NCBI RefSeq assembly: GCF_900250075.1
Contig: NZ_LT977072.1
Span: forward strand, 235,164-299,163
Direction: 5' to 3'
Source: Cupriavidus taiwanensis
GTDB lineage: Bacteria > Pseudomonadota > Gammaproteobacteria > Burkholderiales > Burkholderiaceae
DNA length: 64,000 bases
Numbering within the stretch: position 1 is the stretch's first letter; every line of letters begins with the position of its first letter. The position numbers and the translations under genes are program-made. The notes beneath the pieces are model-generated. The model did not search any database. It was not told where the DNA came from and saw only the letters and a list, made by a program, of their open reading frames with translations. Shown here piece after piece: positions 15,679-58,917 of the stretch.

Positions 15679-15797
15679 CCCATAGGGACAAGGCCCCTAT
15701 GGGTGAAGAAAAAGCTGTGCCGGCAGAGCCGGCAAGGTCGATGCGTCAAAGACGCGGTAAGCACGGCAATTCTAGCGCCCAAACTCCCGCGCTTCAA
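15679..15797 (-). promoter_or_regulatory. Structured leader, copy 1, with promoter
   Basis: On the minus strand: -35 TTGAAG (15792-15797), 17 bp, -10 TAGAAT (15769-15774), then hairpin P1 (GCGTC-TTT-GACGC, 15736-15757 with the conserved ATCGACC), hairpin P2 (GCCGGC arms, 15719-15733), a short T-rich linker and hairpin P3 (CCCATAGGG arms, 15679-15703). The gene at 15649 follows. Confidence 0.8.
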
Positions 15798-15805
15798 AAG
15801 AAAAA

Positions 15806-15833
15806 TGCCCGCCCCCTTTTCGGGGAGCGGGCA
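15806..15833 (-). terminator. Intrinsic terminator after the SbcC-like gene
   Basis: Minus-strand stem TGCCCGCTCCCC with its complement and a 4-nt loop, followed by TTTTTCTTTT. The T-tract overlaps the -35 of the next leader promoter, so this terminator and promoter are packed together. Confidence 0.85.
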
Positions 15834-15859
15834 TAGGCAAAGATGGAACGTGGGCGCGA

Positions 15860-18184
15860 CTACTGGGCAGCCAGCGCAACGACATCGATGACACCATCTG
15901 CGTCGTCGACGAGGTCTGGCGTCTGGGAAATGAAGAACTCGCGCTCGTAACCCCCGACCCGCAGCACTTCGCGCTTCATCTTCATGAAGGCGCGCTTACG
16001 CTCCGGATCCAGCGGCCCGTCTGCCTCGTCGGTGAAAAGCGTCTGGAAGGCATGCTGCGCGTGCTGCGCCCGGTAAAGCGCAATACCCCGGGTCAGGCAT
16101 TCGTTGATCCACACCTTCTGCCCTCCACTGATCACGCCAAACTCCTTCGAGCTGTCGTTCTCAGCGTCGAGCACGGCGATGGAGAACCCCTCCCTGGCTT
16201 CGCCGCTGGCAAGCAGCGTCTGCGTCTGGATCGCGATGGTGAATCGCGGTCCGTAGCAGGCGAGCAGCAGATCGTTGACGATGCGGGTAATGGCTGGTCC
16301 GGCGTCATCGATCGACAGCGCGATCACGCCGTCGTTGCCAAGGCCCTTGCCGAGGAGCTTCCACAGCGCAATCTCGTCGGACAGGCGTTGAACCTGCGCT
16401 TCAAGATTGGGCAGACCAGCGAGCTCGCGCTCGATGCGGTCGCGATCGGTGGCCAGGGCACTCTGACGACGGATCAGTGTTTCGATCCTGCCGTCGGCTG
16501 CACTCACCGCCTCGCGAACACCCACGATGCGCCGATCCAAGTCAGCGATCAAGGCCGTCACGTCCGTGATAGCCAACGCATCCACCTCCCGCTGCACTGC
16601 GGCGAGTTGGGATTCAACATCCTGGATATCCCGGGCATGCCGGCTGCTCCGTTCAGTCTCCTCCCTCGTCACCGCGGCCAGATCGCAGCGGGCCTTCTCA
16701 AGAGCGGCCGTAGCACTGTCAAGCAAAGGGCGCTGAGCCGCCAGAGCGGTCAGGCGCTGCAGTTCCTGGTTGTCCCGCGTGATATCGCGCTGCAGCACCG
16801 CCACCGCTTCCCGTGCCGCCGGCAACCGCTGCAAGCTGACCTCCATCGGCTTCAGGGCTTCCTGCTTCTCCCTGTAGCTGGTGCGCAGCTTTGTCACGAC
16901 GACGGCCTGTTCCTCGTACTGTCCCTTGGCCTCGCGGGCCTGGGCCAGCAACGGGCATTGGCTGTGCATCGCATGGCCGGTGCAAGGAACCGTATCCATA
17001 ACATCGGTCTGGGCCTTGAGCGTTCGCGCCAGCTTCGCTGCCACCGAGCCTCGCTGTTCCATCTCGCGAAGCTCTGCTGCCAGTGTCGCATGCCGCGTCG
17101 CCACGGCTTCGACCTCGGCAAGCTCCCGCTGCCTGTCGGCAAGCTGTGCGTAGCGCTGGCCAAGGTCCAGCTGGACCGTATCACGTCGTGCAGCCGCTGC
17201 GGTGATCGCCTCGGATTGGGAAAGGGTTGCCTCACTGGCGGTGGCGGCCTGCTCAAGTTCCCGCCGGCGCGCGGCAGCCTTGGCCGCCGCCGCACGATCA
17301 TCCGCAGCCAGCTGCTGGCTACGTGCCCCGAGTTCCCGCTTGCGCTGATGCAACTCGCGCAACCGGGCCTCGGTACCGGCTGAGGCTGCCTGCTTGGCCG
17401 CCAGCGTGGCACGCTCCTGCTCCAGCTTACTGCCGCAGCTCAACTGCTCCGCGCGCAGCGCCCGGGCCGATTCGAGAGCCTGGTCAAGCTCGCGAACCTC
17501 AGCAGTCATCGACACTGCGGTGTCGCGCTTGCCGGACAGCACAAGCACGTCCCGCTGCAGGGTATCGAGCGACCGGCTCAACGCCTTCGCCACATCGCCC
17601 GCCTTCGCCGACAACTCGCGCAGGTGATCGATGCCGAGCAACTCCGCTAGCAACCGCTTGATCTCGGTCGGCTGGTAGCTCGCCAAAGGACGTCGGTTCT
17701 GTGGAGAAAAGACGCTGGTGAAGAAGGCTTCGGCGGAGCCGAGCACCGAGTCAAGGCACCGGCCGTAGGTGTCGGCCTTGCCGTCGGATACGGTTCCGTC
17801 TGGCAGCTGCACGGGATTCCAGGCGCCGACGGCATCCTTCTCGAACAAGTAGTACTCCGCCTTACGGCTCTTGCCCGGGTTGCGGAATGCAAACGCCGAC
17901 CGATAGACCTTGCCACCATGCTCCCACTCTAGATCCTTCTCAGCGCGGGGGGCGCAAAGGTGGTCCCAGTACGAGAATGCATCGGCCGACATCTTGCTGG
18001 CATGGCTTGGCATGATGGGATAGGGATGCAGGTTGTCCATGATCGTCGTCTTGCCGGCGCCGTTCGGGCCAACAATCGCGATCAGGCCGCCAGGCAGATC
18101 CGTCAGATCCACCGTCACGCTATCGCGATGCATGCCATCGCGGATGCCGTGAAAGCCCGCAAGGGTCAGTTTGAGTGGGCGCAT
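15860..18184 (-). CDS. SbcC/Rad50-like ATPase
   Basis: A 774-residue SMC-like ATPase, shorter than chromosomal SbcC (about 1,000). Walker A is GPNGAGKTT (residues 39-47), the ABC signature is SGGQK and Walker B/acidic residues lie in LFTDEADGPLD near the C-terminus. Between them are long Ala/Glu/Arg-rich coiled coils. The usual CxxC zinc hook is not obvious; the only central Cys pair is in PCTGHAMHSQCPL, spaced eight apart. The start ATG overlaps the gene at 18166-18687. The SbcD-like nuclease gene lies upstream (18848-20254). Together they would process DNA ends or hairpins during replication or repair of the element. Plasmid-borne SbcCD-like pairs are known. Confidence 0.85.
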   Translation of the reverse strand: MRPLKLTLAGFHGIRDGMHRDSVTVDLTDLPGGLIAIVGPNGAGKTTIMDNLHPYPIMPSHASKMSADAFSYWDHLCAPRAEKDLEWEHGGKVYRSAFAFRNPGKSRKAEYYLFEKDAVGAWNPVQLPDGTVSDGKADTYGRCLDSVLGSAEAFFTSVFSPQNRRPLASYQPTEIKRLLAELLGIDHLRELSAKAGDVAKALSRSLDTLQRDVLVLSGKRDTAVSMTAEVRELDQALESARALRAEQLSCGSKLEQERATLAAKQAASAGTEARLRELHQRKRELGARSQQLAADDRAAAAKAAARRRELEQAATASEATLSQSEAITAAAARRDTVQLDLGQRYAQLADRQRELAEVEAVATRHATLAAELREMEQRGSVAAKLARTLKAQTDVMDTVPCTGHAMHSQCPLLAQAREAKGQYEEQAVVVTKLRTSYREKQEALKPMEVSLQRLPAAREAVAVLQRDITRDNQELQRLTALAAQRPLLDSATAALEKARCDLAAVTREETERSSRHARDIQDVESQLAAVQREVDALAITDVTALIADLDRRIVGVREAVSAADGRIETLIRRQSALATDRDRIERELAGLPNLEAQVQRLSDEIALWKLLGKGLGNDGVIALSIDDAGPAITRIVNDLLLACYGPRFTIAIQTQTLLASGEAREGFSIAVLDAENDSSKEFGVISGGQKVWINECLTRGIALYRAQHAQHAFQTLFTDEADGPLDPERKRAFMKMKREVLRVGGYEREFFISQTPDLVDDADGVIDVVALAAQ

Positions 18185-18687: not shown

Positions 18688-18715
18688 CTTGCACTCCAGT
18701 GTGGGCGGAGCGCGC

Positions 18716-18785
18716 CCCTGACGGGTAGCACCCGCCAGGGTAAGAAGGAATTGGATACTGCTGGGTCGATGCGTCAATGACGCGG
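18716..18785 (-). promoter_or_regulatory. Structured leader, copy 2
   Basis: Minus-strand P1 hairpin GCGTC-ATT-GACGC with ATCGACC (18764-18785), no clear P2, and P3 with CCCTG.CGGGT arms (18716-18740), just upstream of the gene starting at 18687. No good -10 box is seen at the usual distance. Confidence 0.7.
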
Positions 18786-18847
18786 GTGAAACCGGGTTTC
18801 GACAGCCCATGCGGCTGTCGGAACATGGCTTGCGCATGCTCTAAGGG

Positions 18848-21920: not shown

Positions 21921-22388
21921 GGCAGACTCTCCCGAAACGGTCTCTCACAAACGACAAAAGCCCGCGTCCCGGGTACGCCGGAAAGCGAGCTTTGCTAGAG
22001 AGACCTGGATGCCACGCCCCTTCCGGGGGCGTGGCACTCAGGGAGCAACGCACAAAGGCGCGCCGCTCATGCGGAGGACGTAAAGTCGTCCTCGTGCAGC
22101 ATGGTCACGCTGCACAACAACCCATTTCGCGAACCCACAGGTTCGGCCGCAGGTTCACGGATCGGCTCGACGTCAGCCGTTCTGCCTAGGAGGGGCCTGG
22201 AGAGAGACGCCACATGGTCCCAGGCTCGAACGGTGTCCAGCGTGCGCTCATGAAGAGGCACAGCCAAAGGCGCGTATTACGAGCTGATGAGGGAAGTGCT
22301 CGGCGAAAACACTTATCACAAGGAATATCCACACCGGTAGCCAACCGGTCGGCGCGTGCGCAAATTGCACGACTTGAAGCAGAAGATG
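21921..22388. other. Long leader region upstream of 21609-21920
   Basis: Contains a possible minus-strand stem around 21965-21997 ending in TTTTG, a P3-like hairpin at 22012-22036 and a weak minus-strand frame at 22067-22267 that has only non-ATG starts and no ribosome site. The frame is probably not a gene. This whole stretch lies downstream of leader copy 3, so it is probably untranslated RNA. Confidence 0.4.
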
Positions 22389-22444
22389 GACTCTCAGGGA
22401 GTCAGGGTCGATGCGTCAGTGACGCGAGGTGTGAGTGAATTGTG
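22389..22444 (-). promoter_or_regulatory. Structured leader, copy 3
   Basis: Minus strand: -10-like CACAAT (22439-22444), P1 hairpin GCGTC-ACT-GACGC with ATCGACC (22406-22427), P2 with GACTC/GAGTC arms (22389-22403). It points away from the plus-strand gene at 22563, toward the gene at 21920. Confidence 0.7.
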
Positions 22445-28225: not shown

Positions 28226-28257
28226 GGGATTCCTCAGGGGAAGTCCCACAGGCCGTC

Positions 28258-28354
28258 CCCACAGGGAGCGGTCCCTGTGGGAAGGTTCAAGAGATGGCCT
28301 GCTTGCCGGCGTTGGGGTCGATGCGTCAACGACGCTGGTAAAACTGTGTTTGGA
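28258..28354 (-). promoter_or_regulatory. Structured leader, copy 4
   Basis: Minus strand: P1 GCGTC-GTT-GACGC with ATCGACC (28316-28337), an imperfect P2 (28298-28311) and P3 with CCCACAGGG arms (28258-28281), ending 33 bp before the MoxR start. The predicted -10 position is poor (TCCAAA). Confidence 0.75.
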
Positions 28355-28492
28355 CTGATCCGTACCAGTGCAAACACCGCTTTGATGACGAAAGGCTAAC
28401 GCTTCCGGCCTCTGCCGGTAACGACGAAAGCTCAGGCAAACAGTACGTGATTCAAGGAAGCTTCCCCGGCCCGGAAGGGCCAGGGAAGTGCA

Positions 28493-30064
28493 TCAAGCCG
28501 CGATGGCAGCGGGAACGGCTGCTTGCGCGAGCCGGGCCCGTGCATAGGAAAGGGTCCCATCCTTGGCGCGCAGCGGTCGCGACATGCCGCGTCGCGGATT
28601 GCAGATGCGATAGGCGCGCGCGCGGCCGCGTGGCATGTCGATGATTTCCGAGAAGCCCTCGGCAATACAGAAATCGACGTACTCGCGACCGTTCAGCACC
28701 TTGCCGCCTTCCAGGCGCCAATTGGAAGCCTCCGCGCGCTTGCGGGCGTCCTCGAACTCGCGCGCGGCCGCACGGTCGGCTTTCGCTGCTGCCGCCTCGG
28801 TCTCCCAACGCTCCTGCTCCGCTGGCGAGAACCCACACAGCTCAAAAATCCGCCGGCGGCGCAGCGCCGCGGTGCACTGCAGGAGATCGACACCGGTCAC
28901 TTCACGCAAGGCGCGCTTGCTATCGGTGTTCCAGTCCTTGGGGCTATCGAAGACCTCCAGCACCGCGGCAACGTCACGCTGCAGGACCGCCAGCGCAACC
29001 ATGTTGGCCCAGTCGTAGCCAGCGCAGGTGCGATCGGCAACGGCGCGCCGCGCGAGATCATCGAAGTGCCGCTGGCTGATTTCCAGGGCTTCGCGCTGGG
29101 CCTTGGCGCGCTCCATCGTGGCGTCGAATCGCCGCTGTGTGGTGAGCGCGTGGATGCGTTGCGCCAGCGGCGACACCGGTGTCGCGGCCGGCCCTTTCGG
29201 CCCTTTCGCAGCGTCAAGAGCCACAGCCGTACGCGGCTGCAGCATGCCAGCTGAGAACAAGGCGTCGTCGACCTGCACGACCCCACAGCCCACTGGCAGC
29301 CTTCGCACGATGGCGAGCAGCTTCCCCGCGTTGTCCGCTGTGATCTTCAGCCCATCGTGCCGCATGACGTGGCAGAGGCCCTGCAACTGCGCAGGCGATA
29401 GCGCGCCACGCAGTGCCGGCACCTCGATCAGCGGCCGCAACCAGGTCAGGTCGTGCTTGCCGATCTCAGGATCGTCGCGGTAGGCGCTCAGTACGCATTC
29501 GCGCACCTTCTCGCCGCGCAGCAAGACATAGGCAACATGCAGCTCGTGGCGCGCGTTTGGGCTCGCGCCTGGTGCGTATGCGGGGCCCTGCCGACCGTAG
29601 CCGAAGCGGCGACGGAACTCATTGTCGACGAAGGCCGCGATGTCAAAAGGCCCCTCGGCTTCAAACAAATCCCGGGTGTGAAGCAGCGGCCCGGTTTCGG
29701 CGGCAGCCAGATCGATCGCCTCTTCAGGGAAGAACGCCAGGCGGCCCGCGGCAACGACCGCGCCCCAAGAGGCGCGGCTCATCTCATGCGGGCGCAGGAC
29801 CTTGCCGTCCACCCGGACAATGTACCGCTCAACCTCATCGAGGATCTGGACCAGGATTGAACGAGCCGTACCGCGCGGGCACACTGCCATCCGGCCCGAC
29901 TTCAGTTGATGCACGGCGATATCACCGCGCTCGACATGGCGCACGGTGACGTCTGCCGGCCGCGGTGCGGCCATGCCTCGTCGGTCCTGGTTGAGGTATT
30001 CCAGCACGCCGGCGAGCGTCGTGCGCATTTCGGATCGGGCCGATCCTATGGAAATTACGTACAT
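28493..30064 (-). CDS. Large hypothetical protein, 523 residues
   Basis: Starts at ATG 30064 (MYVISIGSARSEMRTTLAGV), preceded by GGAG. The N-terminal 100 residues look beta-rich; later parts are helical with a basic region (RRRRIFELCGF) and an Arg/Ala-rich coiled segment (about residues 430-470). No motif recognised. It has a P3-like hairpin (CCCTCTCGGGG arms, 30090-30114) between it and the DUF4313 gene. Likely a plasmid-backbone protein of unknown role. Confidence 0.65.
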   Translation of the reverse strand: MYVISIGSARSEMRTTLAGVLEYLNQDRRGMAAPRPADVTVRHVERGDIAVHQLKSGRMAVCPRGTARSILVQILDEVERYIVRVDGKVLRPHEMSRASWGAVVAAGRLAFFPEEAIDLAAAETGPLLHTRDLFEAEGPFDIAAFVDNEFRRRFGYGRQGPAYAPGASPNARHELHVAYVLLRGEKVRECVLSAYRDDPEIGKHDLTWLRPLIEVPALRGALSPAQLQGLCHVMRHDGLKITADNAGKLLAIVRRLPVGCGVVQVDDALFSAGMLQPRTAVALDAAKGPKGPAATPVSPLAQRIHALTTQRRFDATMERAKAQREALEISQRHFDDLARRAVADRTCAGYDWANMVALAVLQRDVAAVLEVFDSPKDWNTDSKRALREVTGVDLLQCTAALRRRRIFELCGFSPAEQERWETEAAAAKADRAAAREFEDARKRAEASNWRLEGGKVLNGREYVDFCIAEGFSEIIDMPRGRARAYRICNPRRGMSRPLRAKDGTLSYARARLAQAAVPAAIAA

Positions 30065-30132
30065 GATGTGCTCCGGAGACGGAACACGCCCTCTCGGGGC
30101 GTGCCCCGAGAGGGTTGGAAAATGCCGTGGTG

Positions 30133-30522
30133 CTACACCAGGGCGGCAATGCGATGCGCAGGCGTGCGACAGGCGACCACCCGAGCCGCGGCGAACTGCG
30201 ACAGCAGTTCGGGACAATCGATGCGCCAGATTGCGCCGCCTTGAATGGGCCCAGGCGACACGCGGCCCGCGTCCGTGAACTTGCCGCTGGCCAGCAGCGC
30301 CGCTTTGAGATCCGCCGGAAGGTTCCAGTCGGCGGCCACGCAGAATTCACCGTCGAGCAATGGCGTGCCCGGCAAGTTGACGCTGAGCGAGGCATACGGC
30401 ATGCCGTCGTCTGCGCAGATCAGCTGGATGGCCGGGCGCAGGTTGGCGTCGTAGAGACCGACGCGCAGCTGCACGCCGGCGGGATAGCTGGCCACGCCAG
30501 CGCCAAAAACAATTGCGTCCAT
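30133..30522 (-). CDS. DUF4313-like protein
   Basis: A 129-residue protein starting at ATG 30522. The stretch NLRPAIQLICADDGMPYASLSVNLPG matches the DUF4313 pattern of a hydrophobic strand, then D-G-x-P-Y and a VNL motif. These small proteins are common on conjugative plasmids, and their role is unknown. A P3-like hairpin (30550-30577) precedes the start. Confidence 0.65.
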   Translation of the reverse strand: MDAIVFGAGVASYPAGVQLRVGLYDANLRPAIQLICADDGMPYASLSVNLPGTPLLDGEFCVAADWNLPADLKAALLASGKFTDAGRVSPGPIQGGAIWRIDCPELLSQFAAARVVACRTPAHRIAALV

Positions 30523-30590
30523 CGAGGGGTTTCCCGAGATTAGGGAGCCGCCCCGACGGGACGACGCCCGTGTGGGGTGAGAAAGAAAAA

Positions 30591-30610
30591 GCGCTTCCAG
30601 AGGGAAGCGC
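30591..30610 (-). terminator. Intrinsic terminator after 30664-30777
   Basis: Minus-strand stem GCGCTTCC with its complement and a 4-nt loop, then TTTTTCTTTC. Genes at 30522 and 30064 lie beyond it without an evident promoter of their own, so some read-through is likely. Confidence 0.78.
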
Positions 30611-30663
30611 TTGGGGACTTGCTGATCGCCGACGCATGCGCGCCAGCGTCACGGCGAGTTGGC

Positions 30664-30777
30664 CTAGTCGTTGCGGTCAAGATGCTCGCGCATGCGCTCG
30701 CGATCCGCGTTGCGCAATACCCAGAGCCCAAAGCCGGCGATGCACAGAGTGAGGCCGAGAACAAATGGACCAAACAT
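30664..30777 (-). CDS. 37-residue single-helix membrane protein
   Basis: The start ATG overlaps the stop of the upstream gene (TGATG), with AAGGAGATAAG before it. The product begins MFGPFVLGLTLCIAGFG, is one transmembrane helix, and ends in a charged tail (RERMREHLDRND). Translational coupling and a strong ribosome site support a real gene. Perhaps an accessory subunit of the membrane protein encoded just upstream. Confidence 0.55.
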   Translation of the reverse strand: MFGPFVLGLTLCIAGFGLWVLRNADRERMREHLDRND

Positions 30778-31244
30778 CACTTATCTCCTTTTGCGAGAAC
30801 AGCGCCTATGGCAAATAGTACCGCAGCGCCGGCCAGCAAGCATGCTGCGTTGATAGCGGTCGCTACCGTCCAGGCTTGAATTCCGGCCGCATAACCCACG
30901 AAGCCGACAGCGCAGGCTGCCGAAAGCGTGTGGTAGTAGCGGCCATAGGCCTGCATCTGGTCTTTGCTCGGTTTGCGAAACGCGTCAATCAGCCGGGTCA
31001 GCCAGGCGTCGCTCGTGGCGTGCCTGACATCCAGCTTATAGCGCGCATCTTCGAGTAGAAGCAGCGGGATTGCATATCCCCCCTGATGAGCGACGATGGC
31101 ATAGCCTTCACCCGCTTCCAGCGCTGCGCGCACGCGCAGCAGCATGCGCTTGGGTAATTCAACAACATCGTTGGCGTGCAACGATGCAAAGCCCGTCGTT
31201 TCCTCGCCTGACGTTGCTGTGAACGTGACTTTGATGAGCCTCAT
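30777..31244 (-). CDS. Membrane protein with cytoplasmic N-domain and two C-terminal helices
   Basis: A 155-residue protein from ATG 31244 (MRLIKVTFTATSGEETTGFA). About 105 residues of soluble domain precede two helices (YHTLSAACAVGFVGYAAGIQ and the Ala-rich NAACLLAGAAVLFAIGAVLA). It follows the gene ending at 31255 by 10 bp and overlaps the 37-residue gene. No family known. Confidence 0.6.
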   Translation of the reverse strand: MRLIKVTFTATSGEETTGFASLHANDVVELPKRMLLRVRAALEAGEGYAIVAHQGGYAIPLLLLEDARYKLDVRHATSDAWLTRLIDAFRKPSKDQMQAYGRYYHTLSAACAVGFVGYAAGIQAWTVATAINAACLLAGAAVLFAIGAVLAKGDK

Positions 31245-31254
31245 GCCGTGGCCC

Positions 31255-31632
31255 TCAACCGCGCCGCCCGGCCACCACGCGAAGCGTGGAAACCAGTTCG
31301 GCATAGCCACGTTGCGTAGCCAGCGACTCCACGCTGACTGTATTGTCGCGGCCACCGGCCATGTCATTGCGACCGCGGCACGTCCGATAGGACATGCGAA
31401 TGCCCTCGGCGCCAGGCGGATGCTGAATTTCTACCAGCAACGAGTCGGTCTGCAACGCAAACACGTTGACGTCGCGCCGGCGCTGGCGATGCTCGCGGAT
31501 CGTGTAATCGCGCGGGCGCAAAGCCATGTCGCCAGCAAATCGACGCAGCACGCGGCATGCGTCACGGCGCAGGTCCTGGCATGCCGCCGGATTGTCTGGA
31601 AAAGGTGCGAAGAAGGACTTGGGAAGTTTCAT
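31255..31632 (-). CDS. Hypothetical protein, 125 residues
   Basis: Starts at ATG 31632 (MKLPKSFFAPFPDNPAACQD) with AGAGGAT upstream. Arg-rich soluble protein, no domain recognised. First gene of the operon headed by leader copy 5. Confidence 0.55.
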   Translation of the reverse strand: MKLPKSFFAPFPDNPAACQDLRRDACRVLRRFAGDMALRPRDYTIREHRQRRRDVNVFALQTDSLLVEIQHPPGAEGIRMSYRTCRGRNDMAGGRDNTVSVESLATQRGYAELVSTLRVVAGRRG

Positions 31633-31665
31633 GGATATCCTCTGAATAGCTGGGGACATCCCTTC

Positions 31666-31738
31666 CCTGCCGGGACGAGTGTCCCGCAAGGGTTGGCCCG
31701 GCGATGCCGGACATTGGGTCGATGCGTCTATGACGCGG
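31666..31738 (-). promoter_or_regulatory. Structured leader, copy 5
   Basis: P1 GCGTC-ATA-GACGC with ATCGACC (31717-31738), P2 with CCGGC/GCCGG arms (31701-31713) and P3 (31666-31691). No -10 box at the usual place, so this copy may lie within a longer transcript. Confidence 0.72.
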
Positions 31739-31809
31739 GTAAAAGCGGCTTGCCGAACCCCGAAGGGTTGGGCAAGCCCTCTCGGGCTTGCGAATGGGAT
31801 GAGCTGGAC

Positions 31810-32214
31810 TCAGGCGACATCGAACATCTTGCTGATCGCACGAACGCTGTCCCAAGCTTGACGCTCGGTCAACGACTTGCCGACCAACAGCTTCTGCGCG
31901 GTGGTGGACACGCCCGCTGCATCACCCTGAAGGCCGATGCGATCGACGTGGATGGCCCAGCCTTCGGACCAGCCGCGATGCACGGAGATGGCGATGCGTT
32001 CACGAGCGCCAAACTGGGGCCACTGGCGTGACGACTTCGGGCCGTACAGCGCCTCGTTGTCGTCATCCATAAAGTTGCTCGCGTTGAGCCATTCCGGATC
32101 GAGTCCGGCGCTGCGCAACTGACGACGGATGTCGTCGGCGACTTCAAAAATGTATCTCCCCTTCGTTTCGATGGGGGCGATGGAGATGGGGGTTGCTTCT
32201 GCGACGTCGAACAT
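31810..32214 (-). CDS. Hypothetical protein with MFDVA at both ends
   Basis: A 134-residue protein from ATG 32214 (MFDVAEATPISIAPIETKG). Contains a segment RIAISVHRGWSEGWAIHVDRIG. The peptide MFDVA occurs at the very start and again at the C-terminus (KMFDVA). No domain known. A P3-like hairpin (CCCCCGCGCGGG, 32231-32256) lies just before the start. Probably co-transcribed with the upstream lipoprotein gene. Confidence 0.55.
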   Translation of the reverse strand: MFDVAEATPISIAPIETKGRYIFEVADDIRRQLRSAGLDPEWLNASNFMDDDNEALYGPKSSRQWPQFGARERIAISVHRGWSEGWAIHVDRIGLQGDAAGVSTTAQKLLVGKSLTERQAWDSVRAISKMFDVA

Positions 32215-32301
32215 GTGAATTGCTCCTGTTCGCGACAGAGCCCCCACGCGGGAGGCCCGCGCGGGGGAAAGAGAAGGGATGGGGCTCCGACTGGAGCCAG
32301 G

Positions 32302-32775
32302 TCAGCGAGTGAGGCGGGAACCGCCAGCACCCGAGACGAGGTACAGCCGCTCGCCAGTGACGAACTGCTGATCCGCGTCTTGCGTGACAACAATCTGGCG
32401 GCCGCTGTCCGTACGGACAATGACCTCCACGCCGCTGCGACGGCTCAGGTGATTGGCGGCCGTCTGAGCGATGACCGCAGAAACGGTGCCCGAGAGCGCG
32501 CCGGCTAGGTAACGGCCATTGCCGTTGCCGATGACGCGCGCACCCAGTACCGCGCCAACAACAGCACCCAGAACACCCGGCACGCCGGTGTTCGCAGACA
32601 TCAAGCCGTCGGTATCAGCAATCGTTACTGGGCGGACCCGGACGACTGTGACAGCTTCAGCGGTACCTGGCCTCAGCGCTTCGGAACCCCGATAGGTATT
32701 CGGCGAAGTCGGCTGGGCGGCGCAGCCAGCAAAGACGGCGCAGCAAAGGAAAAGCAGGAAGAAACGCTTGATCAT
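32302..32775 (-). CDS. SlyB/glycine-zipper outer-membrane lipoprotein
   Basis: A 157-residue lipoprotein. Signal peptide MIKRFFLLFLCCAVFAGC with lipobox Cys18. The central part GVPGVLGAVVGAVLGARVIGNGNGRYLAGALSG is a glycine-zipper double helix as in SlyB/Pcp-type lipoproteins, and the C-terminal beta region (EVIVRTDSGRQIVVTQ) is family-typical. Likely anchored in the outer membrane, where such proteins stabilise the envelope. Headed by leader copy 6. Confidence 0.85.
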   Translation of the reverse strand: MIKRFFLLFLCCAVFAGCAAQPTSPNTYRGSEALRPGTAEAVTVVRVRPVTIADTDGLMSANTGVPGVLGAVVGAVLGARVIGNGNGRYLAGALSGTVSAVIAQTAANHLSRRSGVEVIVRTDSGRQIVVTQDADQQFVTGERLYLVSGAGGSRLTR

Positions 32776-32805
32776 GTTGGCCTCAATGAAGAACGGGCCA
32801 ACATG

Positions 32806-32923
32806 CCCACGGGCATGAGGCCCGTAGGGGGAAGGGAGATGTCCGGCTATACAACCGGAAGGGTCGATGCGTCTGAGACGCGGTAGGTGCAGCAATGTTA
32901 GCAGGGTCAGCCGCGATTGTGGA
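32806..32923 (-). promoter_or_regulatory. Structured leader, copy 6, with -10 box
   Basis: Minus strand: -10 TAACAT (32895-32900) with a poor -35, P1 GCGTC-TCA-GACGC with ATCGACC (32862-32883), P2 with TCCGG/CCGGA arms (32842-32859) and P3 (CCCTACGGGC arms, 32806-32829), 31 bp before the lipoprotein start. Confidence 0.8.
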
Positions 32924-33299
32924 GAGGGCTGATGGGGTAGCCACCTGCTACCACCGTGGCGCGGGCCGGTGCATCCACGAGTTGCCAGCACCAGCTTTCG
33001 CCAAGCGAATAGAGCTGCAAATGTTCGCCGTCCACGATTTGCGGTCCCGCATGGAACCATTCTGCCTCGCCGTTCTCGTCGAACAGGAAGGCATGGCGCG
33101 CCTCAACGTACACGAGGCCTGGCATCACTCCACAGAGACTGATCACGTCCTGGCGGGTAAACAGCGGGACGGCAAAGCCGTTCCACATTGAGCCGTTCCA
33201 GTACGCCCACACGAAGGCATTGTCTGGCAGCCAGCTGCCCGTCACGCGAACGCGGCGCCATGCACGGCTCGTACCGCTTTGATTGGGGGAGTCGTTCAT
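32907..33299 (-). CDS. Hypothetical protein, 130 residues
   Basis: Starts at ATG 33299 (MNDSPNQSGTSRAWRRVRVT). Trp-rich (WLPDNAFVWAYWNGSMWNGFA), soluble, no domain recognised. A single-gene unit between leader copies 7 and 6. Confidence 0.55.
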   Translation of the reverse strand: MNDSPNQSGTSRAWRRVRVTGSWLPDNAFVWAYWNGSMWNGFAVPLFTRQDVISLCGVMPGLVYVEARHAFLFDENGEAEWFHAGPQIVDGEHLQLYSLGESWCWQLVDAPARATVVAGGYPISPLHNRG

Positions 33300-33328
33300 G
33301 ATGTGCTCCGAAGAAGGAAAGGAGCACA

Positions 33329-33445
33329 CCGCCAGGGCAGGTGCCCCAACGGGTTGAAAATTCAAAGTGGCGAAGTGCCACGAGGTCGATGCGTCCTGGA
33401 CGCGAGGTGTGACGCGATCCTAGCAGCGCGGGACGAGCTCATCAA
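33329..33445 (-). promoter_or_regulatory. Structured leader, copy 7, with promoter
   Basis: Minus strand: -35 TTGATG (33440-33445), 17 bp, -10 TAGGAT (33417-33422), P1 GCGTC-CAG-GACGC with ATCGACC (33384-33405), P2 with GTGGC/GCCAC arms (33367-33381) and P3 (33329-33352). The clearest promoter of the set. Confidence 0.85.
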
Positions 33446-33468
33446 GTCGGCTGCCACAAAAGAAAAAA

Positions 33469-33493
33469 GCCATCCCCAAACGTCGGGGATGGC
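33469..33493 (-). terminator. Intrinsic terminator of the PRTRC operon
   Basis: Minus-strand stem GCCATCCCC with its complement, followed by TTTTTTCTTTT. It lies directly after the ThiF stop and directly before the promoter of leader copy 7. Confidence 0.9.
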
Positions 33494-33497
33494 GGGC

Positions 33498-39325: not shown

Positions 39326-39365
39326 CTTTTGGGTTCTCCGGGACGGAATGGGGAACCCGTTGCCG

Positions 39366-39523
39366 CACCGGGAACAGGTTCCCGGTGGGATGGAAAGGTG
39401 GGCTGGCCCGGCAAAGCGGGAGGCCACCAAACTGCAGAAGCTGGCCCCAAAAGGGGCGAAGGTCGATGCGTCTTGGACGCGGAAAGCGTTGAAAGGATAG
39501 CCGAACTCACCCTCCCCGATCAA
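39366..39523 (-). promoter_or_regulatory. Structured leader, copy 8, with promoter, ahead of PRTRC ParB
   Basis: Minus strand: -35 TTGATC (39518-39523), 18 bp, -10 TATCCT (39494-39499), P1 GCGTC-CAA-GACGC with ATCGACC (39461-39482), P2 with GCCCC/GGGGC arms (39444-39457) and P3 with CACCGGG arms (39366-39387). Confidence 0.85.
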
Positions 39524-39590: not shown

Positions 39591-39696
39591 TGAGTGCATC
39601 TGAGAGGGTTTCCGTAGCGGGGGCTACGGAAACCATCATAAGGGCCATGCCGTACCGGCTGACACCCAAAAGCTCGCCAATTTCGACGTGCTTTCT

Positions 39697-40758: not shown

Positions 40759-40968
40759 TCAGGCGGCGGTGGCAGGCTTGGGATCCAGATTCAGCAGCTT
40801 CGCGAGAAGCCAGCTGATCAGAACCAGAAACTCGATTTCGGCAACGATGTGCAATTGCATTGCGGCAAGACGATCGTCACCAGTGGTCACAACGAAATAC
40901 AGCGCCGCGAACAGGTTCAGAACCGTCGCGAGGACGGCCAGCGTGCTGGTACGGGAGGAGATAAGCAT
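40759..40968 (-). CDS. Small two-helix membrane protein, paralogue of the 15419-15649 product
   Basis: A 69-residue protein (MLISSRTSTLAVLATVLNLF) with two helices separated by TTGDDRLAAMQL. The first helix matches the paralogue's pattern AVLAxVxxLFxALxFVVT. Preceded by leader copy 9. Function unknown; gene size and paired occurrence suggest an accessory role in the membrane. Confidence 0.65.
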   Translation of the reverse strand: MLISSRTSTLAVLATVLNLFAALYFVVTTGDDRLAAMQLHIVAEIEFLVLISWLLAKLLNLDPKPATAA

Positions 40969-40994
40969 GGACAGGCTCCGGAAATGGAGCCTTC

Positions 40995-41112
40995 CCCATT
41001 GGGAAAAGCCCCAATGGGTGGAAAAGCAGATGGCCGGTACGCCGGCAAGGTCGATGCGCTGAAAGCGCGGAGAATCGGGCGGATATTACAGCGAATTGAC
41101 GCCGATGGACAA
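40995..41112 (-). promoter_or_regulatory. Structured leader, copy 9, with promoter and compensatory P1
   Basis: Minus strand: -35 TTGTCC (41107-41112), 18 bp, -10 TAATAT (41083-41088), P1 with changed but still paired arms (GCGCT-TTC-AGCGC) and ATCGACC (41049-41070), P2 GCCGG/CCGGC (41033-41046), P3 CCCATTGGG arms (40995-41018). The paired change in P1 argues for RNA structure. Confidence 0.85.
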
Positions 41113-41126
41113 GACCCGGGGCGCGG

Positions 41127-41639
41127 TCAACCTTCAGCGCGCCGCCGTCGGCTCGCTTCTCGCAGGCGATTGATGACATCCCAGCGGCGCAGGTCAACCT
41201 CTTCCGGGTTCTCCAGGTTCGAGTGATCCAGTATCGGACCGTCATCGCCAAACGGCGTGTAGTCTTCGGGCAGTTTGCCCTCCTCCTTCAGCCGCGCGGC
41301 CTGCAGTTTTGACAGCCCGTGGCTGGTTTCGCTGATCGCAACGTAGTCCCAGCGCTGCGGCACCGCGGCTTCGGAGAACCAGTCGTCGCCCTCCCCCGTC
41401 GCAACGAGAGCGACGACGTCATAGACACTGCCTGTCGACGAGGGCAGCGCCCTGACCTCGAAGCGAACGACCTCCGGCCGTGGATGCCAGAACACCCGAT
41501 CCAGATAGCGTTTGAACGTGAAGGCATCCAGGCGCGCGATCTCCCCGTATTGCGGGTCCCCCGGAGGGATGAACTCGCGCTCGCCGGCAGGCCGGGTGCC
41601 GAGGGACACTTCGCGAAAGCTGGTGGTGGGGGACGCCAT
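41127..41639 (-). CDS. Hypothetical protein, 170 residues
   Basis: Starts at ATG 41639 (MASPTTSFREVSLGTRPAGE). Soluble, mixed alpha/beta, with acidic and basic stretches, ending RLREASRRRRAEG. No family recognised. Transcribed divergently from the plus-strand operon at 41801; its stop lies 15 bp from the -35 of leader copy 9. Confidence 0.55.
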   Translation of the reverse strand: MASPTTSFREVSLGTRPAGEREFIPPGDPQYGEIARLDAFTFKRYLDRVFWHPRPEVVRFEVRALPSSTGSVYDVVALVATGEGDDWFSEAAVPQRWDYVAISETSHGLSKLQAARLKEEGKLPEDYTPFGDDGPILDHSNLENPEEVDLRRWDVINRLREASRRRRAEG

Positions 41640-50370: not shown

Positions 50371-51030
50371 TCTGAGCCCCAAGGCGCCACACAGTGCACG
50401 GCGCAGTTTCCCGGGCAATCACCGACCCCGATTCGGACATGCCCCTCGAGTGCGCCGGGATACCACCCCCGGCTTTCCGGCCCACCCTGGCCGGCCTTAC
50501 CCACCACCTTCCTGTCCTTTAGCGATGCCAAACCGATCAGCCCTGAGCATGGAAGCAATGCGTCGTGACTGTCCGCTGCACGAAGCGCGTCGGCTTTCGC
50601 CCACACGCCGCTGCGCGGCCACCCTATCCGGATGCATCTCTCGATGCAGGGCCCTGCCGCGCCAGGATTGCGTCCTGATGCTGGCGGGCCCGCCGTGATG
50701 GGTGATTACCTGATGCGCTGTTCTGGTTCCGGTAGCGCCCTCCGGTTCGAAATTGCTCAGAAGCCTGCTATCCACCTTCTTGCGGTGCGCACATGGCTCC
50801 CCGCCCCAAAGCCAGATCATCCCCGCCGCAGTGTGTCGGGCTTCGTGATCCGCACCCAGCCAAGCGGCTGAACGGGCGTCGTGCATTCGCGTCGATTCCA
50901 CAGAGCACCTGTCCGGTGTCCGGCTTCGGAATTGTCCGCACTACGGTCTATTTTCACGAACAGACCGCCAATCGGCTTGGTATCGCGGTGTCCGGTGTCC
51001 TCACTATCCGACACGGTCCACTTGATTTGA
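50371..51030. other. Non-coding region between recombinase and small-RNA candidate
   Basis: No convincing gene. Frames on either strand are short and lack ribosome sites. A minus-strand frame at 50817-51080 would have to begin inside the terminator-linked RNA described next. It could hold recombination sites for the adjacent integrase, but I see no clear repeat. Confidence 0.4.
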
Positions 51031-51032
51031 TT

Positions 51033-51194
51033 GAAAAAAATGCCGGGAAAATTTCCGGCTTGGTCAACTGGTGTCCGCAAGCCCTCGCCAAGGAGGTTTT
51101 GGGACTTTCATTGCCGCGCAACTGGCGGCGAGGTCGATGCGTCGGGGACGCGGTAGGTGCTCGAAGCATAAACCAGCGACCCACAGCGTTGCAA
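51033..51194 (-). ncRNA. Leader copy 10 ending in a terminator: candidate small RNA of about 125 nt
   Basis: Minus strand: -35 TTGCAA (51189-51194), 18 bp, -10 TATGCT (51165-51170), P1 GCGTC-CCC-GACGC with ATCGACC (51132-51153), P2 with GCCGC/GCGGC arms (51113-51129), then after about 50 nt a stem GCCGG/CCGGC (51042-51059) followed by T-rich sequence (51033-51041). No gene follows closely. A 15-codon frame from an ATG at about 51110 lacks a ribosome site. It could be a free regulatory RNA or an attenuated leader. Confidence 0.6.
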
Positions 51195-53269: not shown

Positions 53270-54751
53270 GTGATGCTCAAGACGCCTGCTCCTTACCAGC
53301 ACGAGCTGGAGATGGTGACGCTGGAATCGTTAGTGCCAGCCGATCACCTGCTTCGCAAGATCGATGCTGCGGTCGATTTCGAGTTCATCCGGGCCAAGGT
53401 CGCGCACCTGTACTGCGCCGATAACGGTCGCCCGGCGCTCGATCCGGTGGTGATGTTCAAGCTGCTGTTCATTGGCTACCTGTTCGGGGTGCGCAGTGAG
53501 CGGCAACTGATGCGCGAAGTGCAGGTCAACGTCGCCTATCGCTGGTTTGCCGGCTTCCGGCTGACCGACAAGGTGCCGGACGCGTCGACCTTCTCGCAGA
53601 ACCGCCGCCGGCGTTATACCGACACCACGGTGTATCAGGAGATCTTCGACGAGGTCGTGCGTCAGGCGATGGGGCACGGCATGGTTGATGGCCGGGTGCT
53701 GTACACCGACAGCACCCATTTGAAGGCCAGCGCCAACAAGAACAAGTTTGACGTGGTGCAGGTCGAGCAGACGCCGTCTGCCTACCTGGCAGAACTGGAT
53801 GCTGCGGTCGATGCGGACCGTGCCGCGCATGGTAAGAAGCCGCTCAAGCGCGATAACGATGGTGATGGGCAAGCCGGCGGCAAGCCCCACACCAAGGAGA
53901 CCAAGGTCAGCCGCACCGACCCGGACAGCGGCTACATGGTGCGCGACGACAAGCCCACGGGCTTCTTCTATCTGGACCACCGCACGGTCGACGCCAAGCA
54001 CGCCATCATCACCGACACCCACGTCACGCCGGCCTCGGTGCACGACAGTCAGCCATATCTGGCGCGGCTGGACCGGCAGCGCGAACGCTTCGGCTTTGAT
54101 GTGCGGGCCGTTGGCCTGGATGCCGGCTACTTCACGCCGATGGTGTGTCACGGCCTGGAGAGCCGCCGCATTGACGGGGTGATGGGCTACCGCACACCGA
54201 ACCACAAGCCCGGCACCTTCTACAAGCGGGAGTACGAGTACGACCGCTATCGCGATGTCTACGTCTGCCCGCGCGGGCAGGAACTGCCCTACAGCACGAC
54301 CAACCGGGTGGGCTACCGGGAGTACAAATCAGACCCGAAGCAGTGCCGGCAGTGCGAGGTGCGCCCGCAATGCACGAACAGCCAAAACGCGATCAAGGTG
54401 GTGGTGCGCCACGTGTGGGAGCGCGACAAGGAGCGGGTCGATGCGCGGCGCCACACCGCCTGGGGCAAGAAAATCTATGCCCGGCGCAAGGAGACGGTCG
54501 AGCGCAGCTTCGCCGATGCCAAGCAGTTGCACGGGCACCGCTATGCGCGCATGCGCGGCTTGCGCAAGGTGGCCGAGCAATGCCTGCTGGCCGCGGCGGC
54601 GCAGAACATCAAGAAGATCGCGCTGGTGCTGGCGCGCCTTTTTATGCGTCTTTGGTGGCTGATGCCGACCCAATCCGAGCTTCACAGTTCGTTCGGGGGC
54701 CGATTCCGGATCATTCCGCAACGCCGGCCGATGCTGCGGCGGGCTGTCTGA
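53270..54751 (+). CDS. IS1182-family transposase
   Basis: A 493-residue DDE transposase if begun at GTG 53270, or one residue shorter from ATG 53273 (MLKTPAPYQHELEMV). N-terminal DUF772-type part (DPVVMFKLLFIGYLFGVRSERQLMREV...RWFAGFRL), catalytic Asp in LYTDSTHLKA, a second in VGLDAGYFTP, and YRTPNHKP; Cys pairs CRQCEVRPQC sit in the insertion domain and the Glu is in RRKETVERSFADAKQ. Full length and undamaged. Confidence 0.93.
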   Translation: MMLKTPAPYQHELEMVTLESLVPADHLLRKIDAAVDFEFIRAKVAHLYCADNGRPALDPVVMFKLLFIGYLFGVRSERQLMREVQVNVAYRWFAGFRLTDKVPDASTFSQNRRRRYTDTTVYQEIFDEVVRQAMGHGMVDGRVLYTDSTHLKASANKNKFDVVQVEQTPSAYLAELDAAVDADRAAHGKKPLKRDNDGDGQAGGKPHTKETKVSRTDPDSGYMVRDDKPTGFFYLDHRTVDAKHAIITDTHVTPASVHDSQPYLARLDRQRERFGFDVRAVGLDAGYFTPMVCHGLESRRIDGVMGYRTPNHKPGTFYKREYEYDRYRDVYVCPRGQELPYSTTNRVGYREYKSDPKQCRQCEVRPQCTNSQNAIKVVVRHVWERDKERVDARRHTAWGKKIYARRKETVERSFADAKQLHGHRYARMRGLRKVAEQCLLAAAAQNIKKIALVLARLFMRLWWLMPTQSELHSSFGGRFRIIPQRRPMLRRAV

Positions 54752-54776
54752 GCGGACCTGGCCACCAAAAACAAAA

Positions 54777-54800
54777 CCCCACACTCCGAAAAATGTGGGG
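54777..54800 (-). terminator. Terminator inside the right IS end
   Basis: Minus-strand stem CCCCACA/TGTGGGG followed by TTTTGTTTTT. It would stop transcripts coming from the primase operon on the right. Confidence 0.75.
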
Positions 54801-54817
54801 TTCGTCAGCAATCTGAA

Positions 54818-54835
54818 GCCCAGCAATCGCTGGGC
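54818..54835. repeat. Right target-site duplication: an 18-bp terminator palindrome
   Basis: Second copy of GCCCAGCAATCGCTGGGC. On the plus strand it is followed by TTCTTGTT, the other half of the original bidirectional terminator between the parM operon and the primase operon. Confidence 0.9.
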
Positions 54836-54857
54836 TTCTTGTTAAGGGTTGGCGCGC

Positions 54858-55067
54858 TCAATGCAGCGTCGGCGCAAGGCAGTAGTCGAGGGCGGAATCG
54901 AAAGACAGCAGCCGATCGAGGAACGTCATGCTTCCCGACGGATCACGGCGATACACATCAAAGAACTGCGCTTCCGACTGGCCGGCCGTGACGTCAGTCG
55001 CGGCCGAGCTGCGCATCGCGTGGATATGCAGCTTGTTGACGATGGCGGTGAATCCCTTCTGTGGCAT
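54858..55067 (-). CDS. Hypothetical protein, 69 residues
   Basis: Starts at ATG 55067 with AGGAGATTGACA (MPQKGFTAIVNKLHIHAMRS). Small soluble protein containing DVYRRDPSGSM. No family recognised. A P3-like hairpin (CCCTGTGGG region, 55091-55128) lies between it and the primase gene. Confidence 0.6.
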   Translation of the reverse strand: MPQKGFTAIVNKLHIHAMRSSAATDVTAGQSEAQFFDVYRRDPSGSMTFLDRLLSFDSALDYCLAPTLH

Positions 55068-56241: not shown

Positions 56242-56266
56242 GGGATGGCTCCGTAATGGGAGGATG

Positions 56267-56288
56267 GGTCGATGCCTGAGACAGGCGT
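56267..56288 (-). promoter_or_regulatory. Structured leader, copy 11, with fully changed P1 arms
   Basis: P1 reads GCCTG-TCT-CAGGC, both arms changed together relative to GCGTC/GACGC, followed by the same ATCGACC. P2 and P3 are absent; the primase ribosome site follows within 15 bp. Confidence 0.7.
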
Positions 56289-56496
56289 GAAGACGCTTGC
56301 TCAAAGGACATCCCGGCGTTGGCCAGAAGGTCGTTTCAGCATGGCGAGGGGAGAATGTCGGCGGGATCGCCGCGGAAGGAGAACTGCGACCGCCGAAGCG
56401 ATCGCAGTTGTGAAGGCAGAGTTCAGCTGGCTGATGCGGGTAGGAGATCAGCAGCCGTTACACCAGAACGGGATGCCGTCCAGTGCTTACTCAAGA

Positions 56497-57830: not shown

Positions 57831-58259
57831 TCAGAGAAGTGAGCCGCAGCACAAGCGACGGACCGCTTCAAGGTCCTCGCGCAGGCGGCGGTGGTTCAGA
57901 ATCACGTCTTGCAGCGTCTCGGGGTCGACCCCCGATACCGCGCAGACGTACGTGTAGGGCAGTGCGCCGTTCCAGTATCCAAAGATCCAGCCCAGCGTCA
58001 TGGAGTACTCCTCCCGGTCGAGCGTGCGATTGCGCATGCGGGCACGCAGCATCTCGGCGCAATCGATCAGGGACTCGGGCATGTTGTCGCCGCGCCTGCT
58101 GTCGCAGGCCAGGCTGATCAGGGCGTCGACCATTTTCTCCCGCACCGACTCGCTCCAGAGGGACGGGTCAGGCAAGGGGTCGAGCTTGGGGGGCGGCACC
58201 TCGATAGCGGCTGCTTCACCGAAGAAGTCCAGCTGCCATCCGGCGGTTGTGGTTTCCAT
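57831..58259 (-). CDS. Hypothetical protein, 142 residues
   Basis: Starts at ATG 58259 (METTTAGWQLDFFGEAAAIE). Soluble and helix-rich, with YSMTLGWIFGYWNGALPYTYV near the middle and a Cys pair near the C-terminus. Stop lies 3 bp before the next start. No family recognised. Confidence 0.6.
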   Translation of the reverse strand: METTTAGWQLDFFGEAAAIEVPPPKLDPLPDPSLWSESVREKMVDALISLACDSRRGDNMPESLIDCAEMLRARMRNRTLDREEYSMTLGWIFGYWNGALPYTYVCAVSGVDPETLQDVILNHRRLREDLEAVRRLCCGSLL

Positions 58260-58356
58260 GATGGTCTCCGGGTAGGCACCCGACAGACCCACCTGGCGGC
58301 GGGTATCGGATACCCGCGACAGGTGAAAAGCGCCGCCCAGAGGGGCGGCATGGGAA

Positions 58357-58662
58357 TTAGGAGCGGTCGTGCGTTCCTGTCCGGCGAATAGGCGTTACCA
58401 CAGCCGAGCGCTCGTACTGGCGCTCGGGCTCCGGCATCTCCTCAGCTTCGGGCTTCAACTTGGACAGGTTGTCCGGCATCGAAACCTTCGGTGCAGCGGG
58501 AATTGCTTTGGACCAGGCCACACCCCTGTGATACAGGAACGAGAGCCCGACGACGGTCACAAAAGCACCGACGATGAACGACTGCGAGGCCACATACAGC
58601 ACCATGCAGAACATAAAGAGTTGGAACGGACGCTTGATGAGGTTCGTGACAAAGGATTCCAC
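58357..58662 (-). CDS. Small membrane protein, GTG start
   Basis: A 101-residue protein. GTG 58662 is chosen because GGAGAG lies just upstream and no ATG exists in the conserved part. One or two helices (FQLFMFCMVLYVASQSFIVG and FVTVVGLSFLYH) are followed by a polar tail. First gene of the ssb operon, about 200 bp after leader copy 12. Confidence 0.6.
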   Translation of the reverse strand: MESFVTNLIKRPFQLFMFCMVLYVASQSFIVGAFVTVVGLSFLYHRGVAWSKAIPAAPKVSMPDNLSKLKPEAEEMPEPERQYERSAVVTPIRRTGTHDRS

Positions 58663-58858
58663 GGTTTCTCTCCAGAAACAAAAAAAGGGAATTCCTGGCG
58701 GATGCCAGGCGATTATTCGATGCTCGGGCGAGCAAGGAATCTCTGGAGGGAAGCTGCAGCGCTTCAACGTACTTGCGTCATGCGGTAGTGCATGGCGAAA
58801 GCACGCTGGCGGGGATGAGGGGCTGCTGCAATGGAGCGCTAGGTAACCCTAGGCTCAT

Positions 58859-58917
58859 GTCGATGCGTGGTGAACGCTGAAGTCCATCCGATCCTAATTG
58901 GACTCTGCTGTCGACAA
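58859..58917 (-). promoter_or_regulatory. Structured leader, copy 12
   Basis: P1 with shortened arms (GCGT/ACGC) and ATCGAC (58859-58879), -10 TAGGAT (58891-58896), a poorly spaced -35 TTGTCG (58912-58917). No P2/P3 in the usual form; a hairpin CCTGGC/GCCAGG with a T-run 7 nt after it (58682-58710) lies in the 200-nt leader. Confidence 0.6.

Follow-up and report, generated by a model that had tools for sequence, protein, structure and literature searches.

A Hairpin-Linked Tag Shared by Ten Leaders and a Predicted Small RNA on a Cupriavidus Plasmid Element

Introduction

Among the described systems that come closest to the one considered here, CsrB-type RNAs compete for the protein CsrA. A plasmid-borne regulator of the Csr/Rsm type, RsmQ, has been described (PMC9928087), and a structured RNA, the sbcD RNA, has been recorded for Burkholderiales (Weinberg et al. 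2010, PMC2864571). The present analysis concerns a stretch of 64,000 nucleotides (nt) of Cupriavidus taiwanensis (assembly GCF_900250075.1, contig NZ_LT977072.1, positions 235,164 to 299,163 of the forward strand), hereafter the window, which is part of contig C3 in a genome of 6.8 Mb. Along one strand of the window, a short hairpin followed by the heptamer ATCGACC, here called the tag, recurs ahead of ten genes, most of them unrelated, and at the head of a predicted small RNA, and it may mark these RNAs for a common factor.

Positions 31000-41500 of the window are 100% identical to NZ_LT984809.1, plasmid I of C. taiwanensis STM 8555, which is typed as conjugative. The core of the element is the PRTRC cassette (ParB, ThiF, A, B, C, E, F), and genes for an SMC-family ATPase, a metallophosphatase, an ATP-binding protein, a primase and ssb are further present. 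The PRTRC part is also found on the C. metallidurans plasmid pMOL28, on the 452-kb plasmid pHG1 of C. necator H16 and on many Burkholderia-group plasmids.

Results

Twelve intergenic copies of the hairpin with ATCGACC, all oriented along the minus strand, had been claimed in an earlier note on this DNA, and eleven of them are found to the base, at 15736, 18764, 22406, 28316, 31717, 32862, 33384, 39461, 41049, 51132 and 56267. These span at most 41 kb, are all intergenic and on one strand, and each consists of a five-pair stem (P1) closed by a three-base loop and followed by ATCGACC. The stem is GCGTC/GACGC in nine copies, GCGCT/AGCGC at 41049 and GCCTG/CAGGC at 56267. The heptamer occurs 21 times in the window against a mean of 8.5 in shuffled sequence, but it is not by itself the signal, and was rejected as the unit, because the ten occurrences that are not copies lack a Watson-Crick P1 stem; the occurrence at 54436 can form a G-U-rich stem and scores 8.9 bits. 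A covariance model of 44 positions (R1), made from a gap-free alignment of 55 diverse copies out of 94 kept, recovers the same eleven copies in the window at 35-48 bits. When the whole genome was searched with R1, with 150 of 3505 first-look candidates scored, these were the eleven strong matches, all in the window and on one strand, and the next one reached 24 bits. Hairpin and heptamer together thus recur far beyond chance. Two matches lie outside the window, at G000:C3:192778-192824 on the minus strand (24.1 bits) and at G000:C14:3353-3396 on the plus strand (23.9 bits), and are possibly degenerate copies or chance.

The twelfth copy (58859..58897, minus strand) was rejected, as it reads CATCGACATG, has no hairpin and scores 9.6 bits (E 1.2), and with it falls the proposed link to the ssb operon. 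That the copies stand ahead of unrelated genes otherwise agrees with the contexts in NZ_LT984809.1, save that copy 51132 heads no gene, and that the genes previously labelled MoxR and SbcC partner are there an ATP-binding protein and a hypothetical gene beside an SMC family ATPase. In line with the earlier statement that no described motif matches, no Rfam family (Rfam 15) reaches its gathering score over any copy; a sub-threshold search with the copy at 32862 gave a best E of 0.11. Scatter over both strands of related elements was not found either, since one of 159 R1 matches in 42 stretches lies on the opposite strand (15.2 bits, E 0.45). The covariance model that had been proposed as a check supports eleven copies and not 58859, and one of the eleven, 51132, heads a predicted small RNA that the earlier note did not contain. 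All in all, the element is real and stronger than had been described, with one copy removed and a small RNA added.

The 159 matches come from searching 42 stretches of related elements with R1 up to E 0.5 (region L210, on the same plasmid as L133, was not among them), and 157 were examined, the two weakest being omitted. Stem variation was counted on these matches because an exact-pattern scan of genomes had used a fixed stem and gave only a lower bound of at least 118 stretches, 80 of which were listed. The exact consensus is present in 91 matches and not in 66; the stem reads GCGTC/GACGC in 123, GCGC/GCGC in nine, GCCTG/CAGGC in seven, GCGCT/AGCGC in six, GCGCC/GGCGC in six and otherwise in six, and ATCGAC follows it directly in 143. 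Among 132 distinct rows, which were fitted to R1, 99.8% of the P1 cells pair and 34 cells, each a sequence and not an event, are changed on both sides, values that none of 500 shuffles reaches. The number of P1 pairs with a double change is reached by 59 of 500 shuffles, and the covariation signal is lost when the partner is slid. The fixity of GC-AUCGA comes partly from selection, because R1 was seeded on copies found with ATCGACC and its matches were read anchored on GCATCGA. Hairpin P1 is conserved as a structure, with its letters replaced and the pairing kept. By eye, matches to the exact pattern outside Burkholderiaceae (in Sphingomonas, Mesorhizobium, Novosphingobium, Chromatium, viral contigs and other sources) have neither the upstream nor the downstream context, and they were left out of the model.

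What follows the tag is also organized. Once the 157 matches are sorted by downstream protein, seven main groups emerge, and the distance from tag to start codon is near constant, at about 70-95 nt in six groups (with nine outliers) and mostly 120-136 nt for ParB. The leaders run in the order P1, AUCGAC, a variable stem (P2), a U-rich stretch, a strong stem (P3) and a last stem (P4), which includes the Shine-Dalgarno site and either reaches the AUG or stops just short of it. In the two groups tested, double changes preserve some of the pairs in P2, P3 and P4, and other pairs are broken in a few sequences.

Folding counts were made on 82 distinct leaders of the 157 matches, taken from the seven gene groups and having the start codon at its usual distance. 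Omitted were the primase and sbcD-type groups, small groups, single matches, distance outliers, duplicates and four matches without a start codon. By an automatic rule, P4 and a preceding hairpin are present in 73 of the 82. When the last 88 nt are folded, a hairpin on the Shine-Dalgarno side is found in 75 of 82 leaders versus 43 of 83 control genes. At least three of four Shine-Dalgarno bases are paired in 79 of 81 leaders versus 39 of 55 control genes from the same GC-rich plasmids, and part of the pairing in the leaders is due to high GC. In parallel, the median unpaired probability of the Shine-Dalgarno site is 0.03 in 16 leaders of the window and pMOL28 and 0.24 in 55 controls (p 7e-4). 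A further set, mostly from other genera, comprised 38 loci (28 of them titled Paraburkholderia, Caballeronia or Burkholderia and 10 with titles not shown). Of its 47 copies, 25 have within 160 nt a start codon that is preceded by a Shine-Dalgarno motif, and the site is paired in 23 of these 25. Folding thus predicts that the Shine-Dalgarno site lies in a conserved hairpin.

The window holds ten leaders, all on the minus strand. That of a small membrane protein (15650..15762, ATG at 15649) has a -10-like TAGAAT upstream, followed by P1 GCGTC/GACGC with ATCGACC at 15736-15755 and then by P2, P3 and P4 over the Shine-Dalgarno site. The leader of a 69-amino-acid membrane protein related to it (40969..41075, ATG at 40968) has the compensated P1 GCGCT/AGCGC. 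Further leaders precede the SbcC-partner gene (18688..18789, ATG at 18687), the ATP-binding protein or MoxR-like gene (28226..28341, ATG at 28225), a 125-amino-acid protein beginning MKLPKS (31633..31742, ATG at 31632), a glycine-zipper lipoprotein (32776..32888, ATG at 32775, with a -10-like TAACAT at 32895-32900) and a 130-amino-acid gene downstream of PRTRC ThiF (33300..33410, ATG at 33299). The PRTRC ParB leader (39326..39487, ATG at 39325) has extra structure between P2 and P3. The short primase leader (56242..56293, ATG at 56241) has the compensated P1 GCCTG/CAGGC with ATCGACC, then a CUCC/GGAG hairpin, and is without P2 and P3, while that of a DUF7696 gene (21921..22432, P1 and ATCGACC at 22406-22425) is long, at a predicted length of about 510 nt. 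In relatives, tandem ParB leaders are found in L185 (5778-5821 and 6671-6714) and L196 (18723-18766 and 19616-19659), and one tandem leader heads a short ParB-like frame of 70 amino acids, apparently a duplicated leader with a gene remnant.

Upstream of the tag, the copies were split by a rough pattern into three classes, of which class A is the default; it comprises 91 of the 157 matches (70 without near-duplicates), class B 56 and class C, mainly primase, 10. Class A has TAnnnT at -19 to -14 before the stem: among the 70 distinct copies, T is found at -19 in 74%, A at -18 in 86%, T at -14 in 87% and A at -7 in 77%, and G stands at -21 in 73% of the class. This spacing is that predicted for an extended -10 element with a transcription start seven bases before the hairpin. 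Seven window copies fall in class A, three in class B (18764, 28316, 31717) and one, that of primase, in class C, and all seven class A copies have a purine at -7 (five A, two G), with the -10 element of 41049 displaced by one base. For pMOL28 (NC_007972.2, minus strand), the model matches give predicted starts, to within a base or two, at 90669 for the parB leader, 83384 for the lipoprotein leader and 130858 for the small RNA, whose end is predicted near 130732. A -10 element in which the second A and the last T are constant is described for C. metallidurans (PMC9045368), and start-site work gives a TAnAAT consensus on pMOL30 and not on pMOL28 (PMC7563307); the missing pMOL28 consensus would fit a looser -10 element. 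A search of PMC9045368 for locus numbers of pMOL28 gave none.

In class B the -10 element is absent, and a hairpin and then an AAACnnnGTTT-like sequence are present instead, as in the SbcC-partner leader, where a hairpin with AAACnnnGTTTYACCC replaces the -10 element. These copies may have an unrecognised promoter. Class B was also considered as a terminator with restart, a view set aside since the hairpins before 28316 and 31717 are unflagged by a terminator scan. The leader of the MoxR-like gene belongs to class B in Cupriavidus and to class A in other genera; given this switch and classes B and C, the tag is retained where the promoter is not. The AAACnnnGTTT-like inverted repeat of class B is also seen ahead of the SbcC-partner gene in other genera.

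The copy at 51132 differs from the leaders in that no gene lies directly downstream. Behind it come P2, a stem that varies and a GC hairpin with a run of seven T, so that a small RNA of 125 nt ending in an intrinsic terminator is predicted at 51034..51158 (minus strand). Its 15 variants, including that of the window, measure 123-127 nt from -7 to the T run (the terminator stem of variant L196 has a mismatch and its end was set by hand), and paired changes are seen in P2 and in the terminator. With a model of this RNA (R2), 30 of the 32 Cupriavidus genomes rich in leaders give a match of at least 98 bits that spans the whole RNA. None of the 28 other genomes does, and the match that ranks next, at 45 bits, is a leader. 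Thus, among the components checked in the 60 genomes, the small RNA tracks the leaders best, PRTRC ParB exceeding its cut-off in 29 of 32 leader-rich genomes versus one of 28 others, and DUF1173 being present in 26 of 32 versus three of 28. Considered as a decoy with the same site, the predicted small RNA holds one tag copy. Right behind its terminator, at 50960-51040 (minus strand), a stretch ending GACACCGGACACCGCGATACC that has no annotated gene is largely conserved in 14 aligned relatives and may be a replication or recombination site.

One tag copy is linked to an RNA family that was already known. The sbcD RNA (RF01757) lies at 22001..22153 (minus strand, 144.4 bits) inside the DUF7696 leader, and it is found in the window and in six of seven other loci searched, the seventh (L192) being without a leader of that kind. 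In all seven loci with sbcD, an R1 match ends 248-250 nt ahead of it, and given this constant spacing the sbcD RNA is probably one segment of an RNA of about 500 nt, either a leader or noncoding, that starts with the tag. Read from sequence alone, the sbcD family is probably part of a longer RNA with a promoter.

In a survey of 60 Cupriavidus genomes with stricter search filters, 33 match, 32 of them with 5-20 copies and one with a single weak copy, and 27 have none. Across Burkholderiaceae, 36 of 249 genomes and six of 25 genera match, and in a sample of the order two of 300, both Cupriavidus. The PRTRC link was counted in Cupriavidus, and one Paraburkholderia plasmid with PRTRC and leaders was examined. 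PRTRC ParB is over the cut-off in 30 of the 60 genomes, 29 of which have at least five leader copies; the exceptions are G049, with ParB and zero copies, and G002, G028 and G051, with 5-6 copies and ParB below the cut-off. Group II intron matches are present in L192 and L194, leader-bearing elements from genomes without PRTRC ParB over the cut-off. In the window, an IS1182-family transposase lies at about 53270-54900; NZ_LT984809.1 is without it, and the coordinates are offset there by about 1.6 kb.

A protein that could read the tag was sought in several families. CsrA is unlikely because PF02599 has no match in the genome (E 0.001), in a search that was positive in three of 14 control genomes including E. 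coli; a NusG paralogue is unlikely because a single NusG match, on contig C1, and no second NusG-family protein was found in the genome; and a plasmid ProQ is unlikely because the one ProQ-family match is located on contig C2, with no FinO/ProQ match on the window contig C3. No RNA-binding family was found by Pfam among 20 plasmid proteins and 10 more open reading frames. DUF1173 was rejected as the factor, since it is absent from leader-rich G002, G004, G007, G018, G024 and G052, and PRTRC ParB is unlikely, since the three genomes with 5-6 copies named above lack it over the cut-off. In the open-access literature on PRTRC, the sbcD RNA, pMOL28 start sites, plasmid leaders, pHG1 small RNAs and repZ, we recognised no description of the motif.

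Discussion

The earlier note had suggested a global control, either post-transcriptional or promoter-linked. The sequence points to both, as a -10-like element stands at a fixed distance in most copies and a hairpin covers the ribosome-binding site in most leaders, while a working control system with a trans-acting partner is what we infer beyond this. Our preferred reading, which we hold at somewhat less than an even chance, is that the tag on the ten leaders and the predicted small RNA marks these RNAs for a shared trans-acting translation factor. Indeed, a binding site for a common factor would be expected, because the tag is shared, is conserved in structure and letters, belongs to one kind of element and lies upstream of blocked ribosome-binding sites. 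In class A, transcription would start at the purine seven bases before P1, in which case the tag would form the 5' end of the RNA, whereas in class B read-through or processing would lead to the tag. A closed P4 would block the ribosome-binding site, and binding of the factor at P1-AUCGAC would change this block. The small RNA, which has the tag in its most constant form, could then compete for the factor or act as a partner, and the candidate factor could be encoded by the plasmid or by the host. Slightly more tentatively, a large family of conjugative plasmids might have an RNA operating system of its own, in which P1-AUCGAC stands on many mRNAs of the backbone, all from a single strand. A novel factor that binds RNA would read it, opening or closing the hairpin that covers the ribosome-binding site of each mRNA, and the tag-bearing small RNA would tune the system.

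Several results weigh against the common-factor reading. No -35 element stands out in class A, and a two-hexamer sigma-70 scan of 28250-33600, which holds the class A copies 32862 and 33384, returned zero promoters. The pairing counts for P1 and the choice of seeds for R1 carry the limits given with them, and the Shine-Dalgarno site is also often paired in the control genes. Opening P4 would cost 5.3-11.9 kcal/mol in the eight window leaders folded, and pairing of P3 with the 5' arm of P4 is present in the best open fold of one of the eight (32862). The small RNA has one tag only, unlike CsrB-type sponges, which have more than one site, and two leader-rich genomes (G007, G050) are without the full small RNA. 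Finally, the searches for CsrA, a NusG paralogue, ProQ and Pfam families yielded no trans-acting factor, and the shared gene DUF1173 is missing in six leader-rich genomes.

Among the alternatives, the one that survives best, though we consider it rather unlikely, is that the tag is a stabiliser of the 5' end, or the fixed first stretch of a copied promoter cassette, which would raise RNA lifetime or promoter escape with no dedicated factor. The fixed distance from promoter to P1 in class A would suit this, as would the presence of the same tag on mRNAs and on the small RNA, which is how a general 5' element would behave. However, class B and primase copies keep P1-AUCGAC without a -10 element, a stabilising hairpin needs no conserved letters beside it, and the strong matches are confined to one kind of element, although such a device could be used by any gene.

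Distinctly less probable is control by base pairing, either with an antisense or small RNA or within the leader itself, by alternative pairing of P3 and P4. The latter has some appeal, as the complementarity of P3 to the 5' arm of P4 is greater within a leader than between leaders: with segments set by eye the mean is -12.66 kcal/mol and the permuted mean -8.56, with one of 20000 permutations as strong, and with automatic segments none of 2000 derangements is as strong, the complementary part being the 5' half and loop of P3. An internal P3/P4 switch was nevertheless rejected as the mechanism and kept only as a rival, because one of eight leaders forms the pairing and because of the cost of opening P4, so that complementarity beats permutation while folding energies do not favour the switch. 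As for a partner RNA, the minus strand of the window contains the complement of ATCGACC three times, twice inside PRTRC genes and once (48319) in an open frame of 244 amino acids that has no annotation, and no genome-wide search for complementary RNAs was made; moreover, the small RNA holds the same sequence as the tag and not its complement.

We regard it as about equally unlikely that the element acts as DNA, whether as the operator of a plasmid regulator or as a putative single-strand promoter on the strand that enters in conjugation. All copies lie on one strand over 41 kb despite plus-strand genes, in one orientation, either directly ahead of genes for primase, methylase and partition or farther upstream; such genes are typical of leading regions, and the inverted repeat adjoins a promoter-like element. 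Yet the letters of the inverted repeat change with the pairing kept, which a sequence-specific DNA reader would hardly tolerate, and a hairpin over the ribosome-binding site follows. We give little credence to an antitermination element (Put-like or dependent on a NusG paralogue) by which the polymerase passes downstream hairpins, since, although the predicted position at the 5' end, the structured multi-hairpin leaders and two leader hairpins called terminator-like by the scan (32810, 33381) would suit it, in the tagged small RNA a conserved intrinsic terminator at the end follows the tag at a distance of less than 100 nt and the genome has a single, chromosomal NusG.

If the tag does mark RNAs for a common translation factor, genes for partition, SbcCD-like repair, primase, the MoxR-like protein and membrane proteins would be switched together without a transcription factor, for example at transfer or at a change in copy number. 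It would represent a replicon-wide translational regulon, built on a tag absent from Rfam that each leader-rich genome carries in 5-20 copies, together with a partner small RNA, in bacteria widely used in the laboratory (C. metallidurans, C. necator), and it would account for the coordination of a large plasmid backbone whose genes are mostly unknown. It would also open a way into the unexplained PRTRC cassette, place the orphan sbcD RNA in a longer context and point to a new RNA-binding factor.

Comparison with Known Systems

Several described systems share single traits with this element. In the repZ gene of IncI-type plasmids, a hairpin also covers the ribosome-binding site, a loop upstream of it complements the arm that does the blocking, and a small RNA is involved. 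However, repZ is a single gene controlled through a pseudoknot, a leader peptide and the antisense Inc RNA, whereas here ten leaders go with a small RNA of the same sense, and no conserved leader peptide was seen by eye in the leaders. Put RNA and the elements that serve RfaH and LoaP are likewise short, structured 5' elements on several operons, but here a terminator follows close behind the tag of the small RNA and one NusG is present in the genome. The sbcD RNA resides on the same plasmid element and probably on the same transcript as one tag copy; it is nonetheless a different structure of 155 nt behind one leader only, and its model does not match P1-AUCGAC.

The likeness to Csr/Rsm lies in the arrangement, in that unrelated mRNAs carry a common hairpin-linked site in their 5' leaders and a small RNA carries the same site, as with CsrA and CsrB. 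The differences are that AUCGAC stands here beside the stem, while the CsrA consensus is GGA in a loop, that the genome is without a CsrA-family match and that the small RNA has one site. Collectively, the general kind of system, translational leaders with a shared site and a small RNA, is already known, and the RNA element itself is absent from Rfam.

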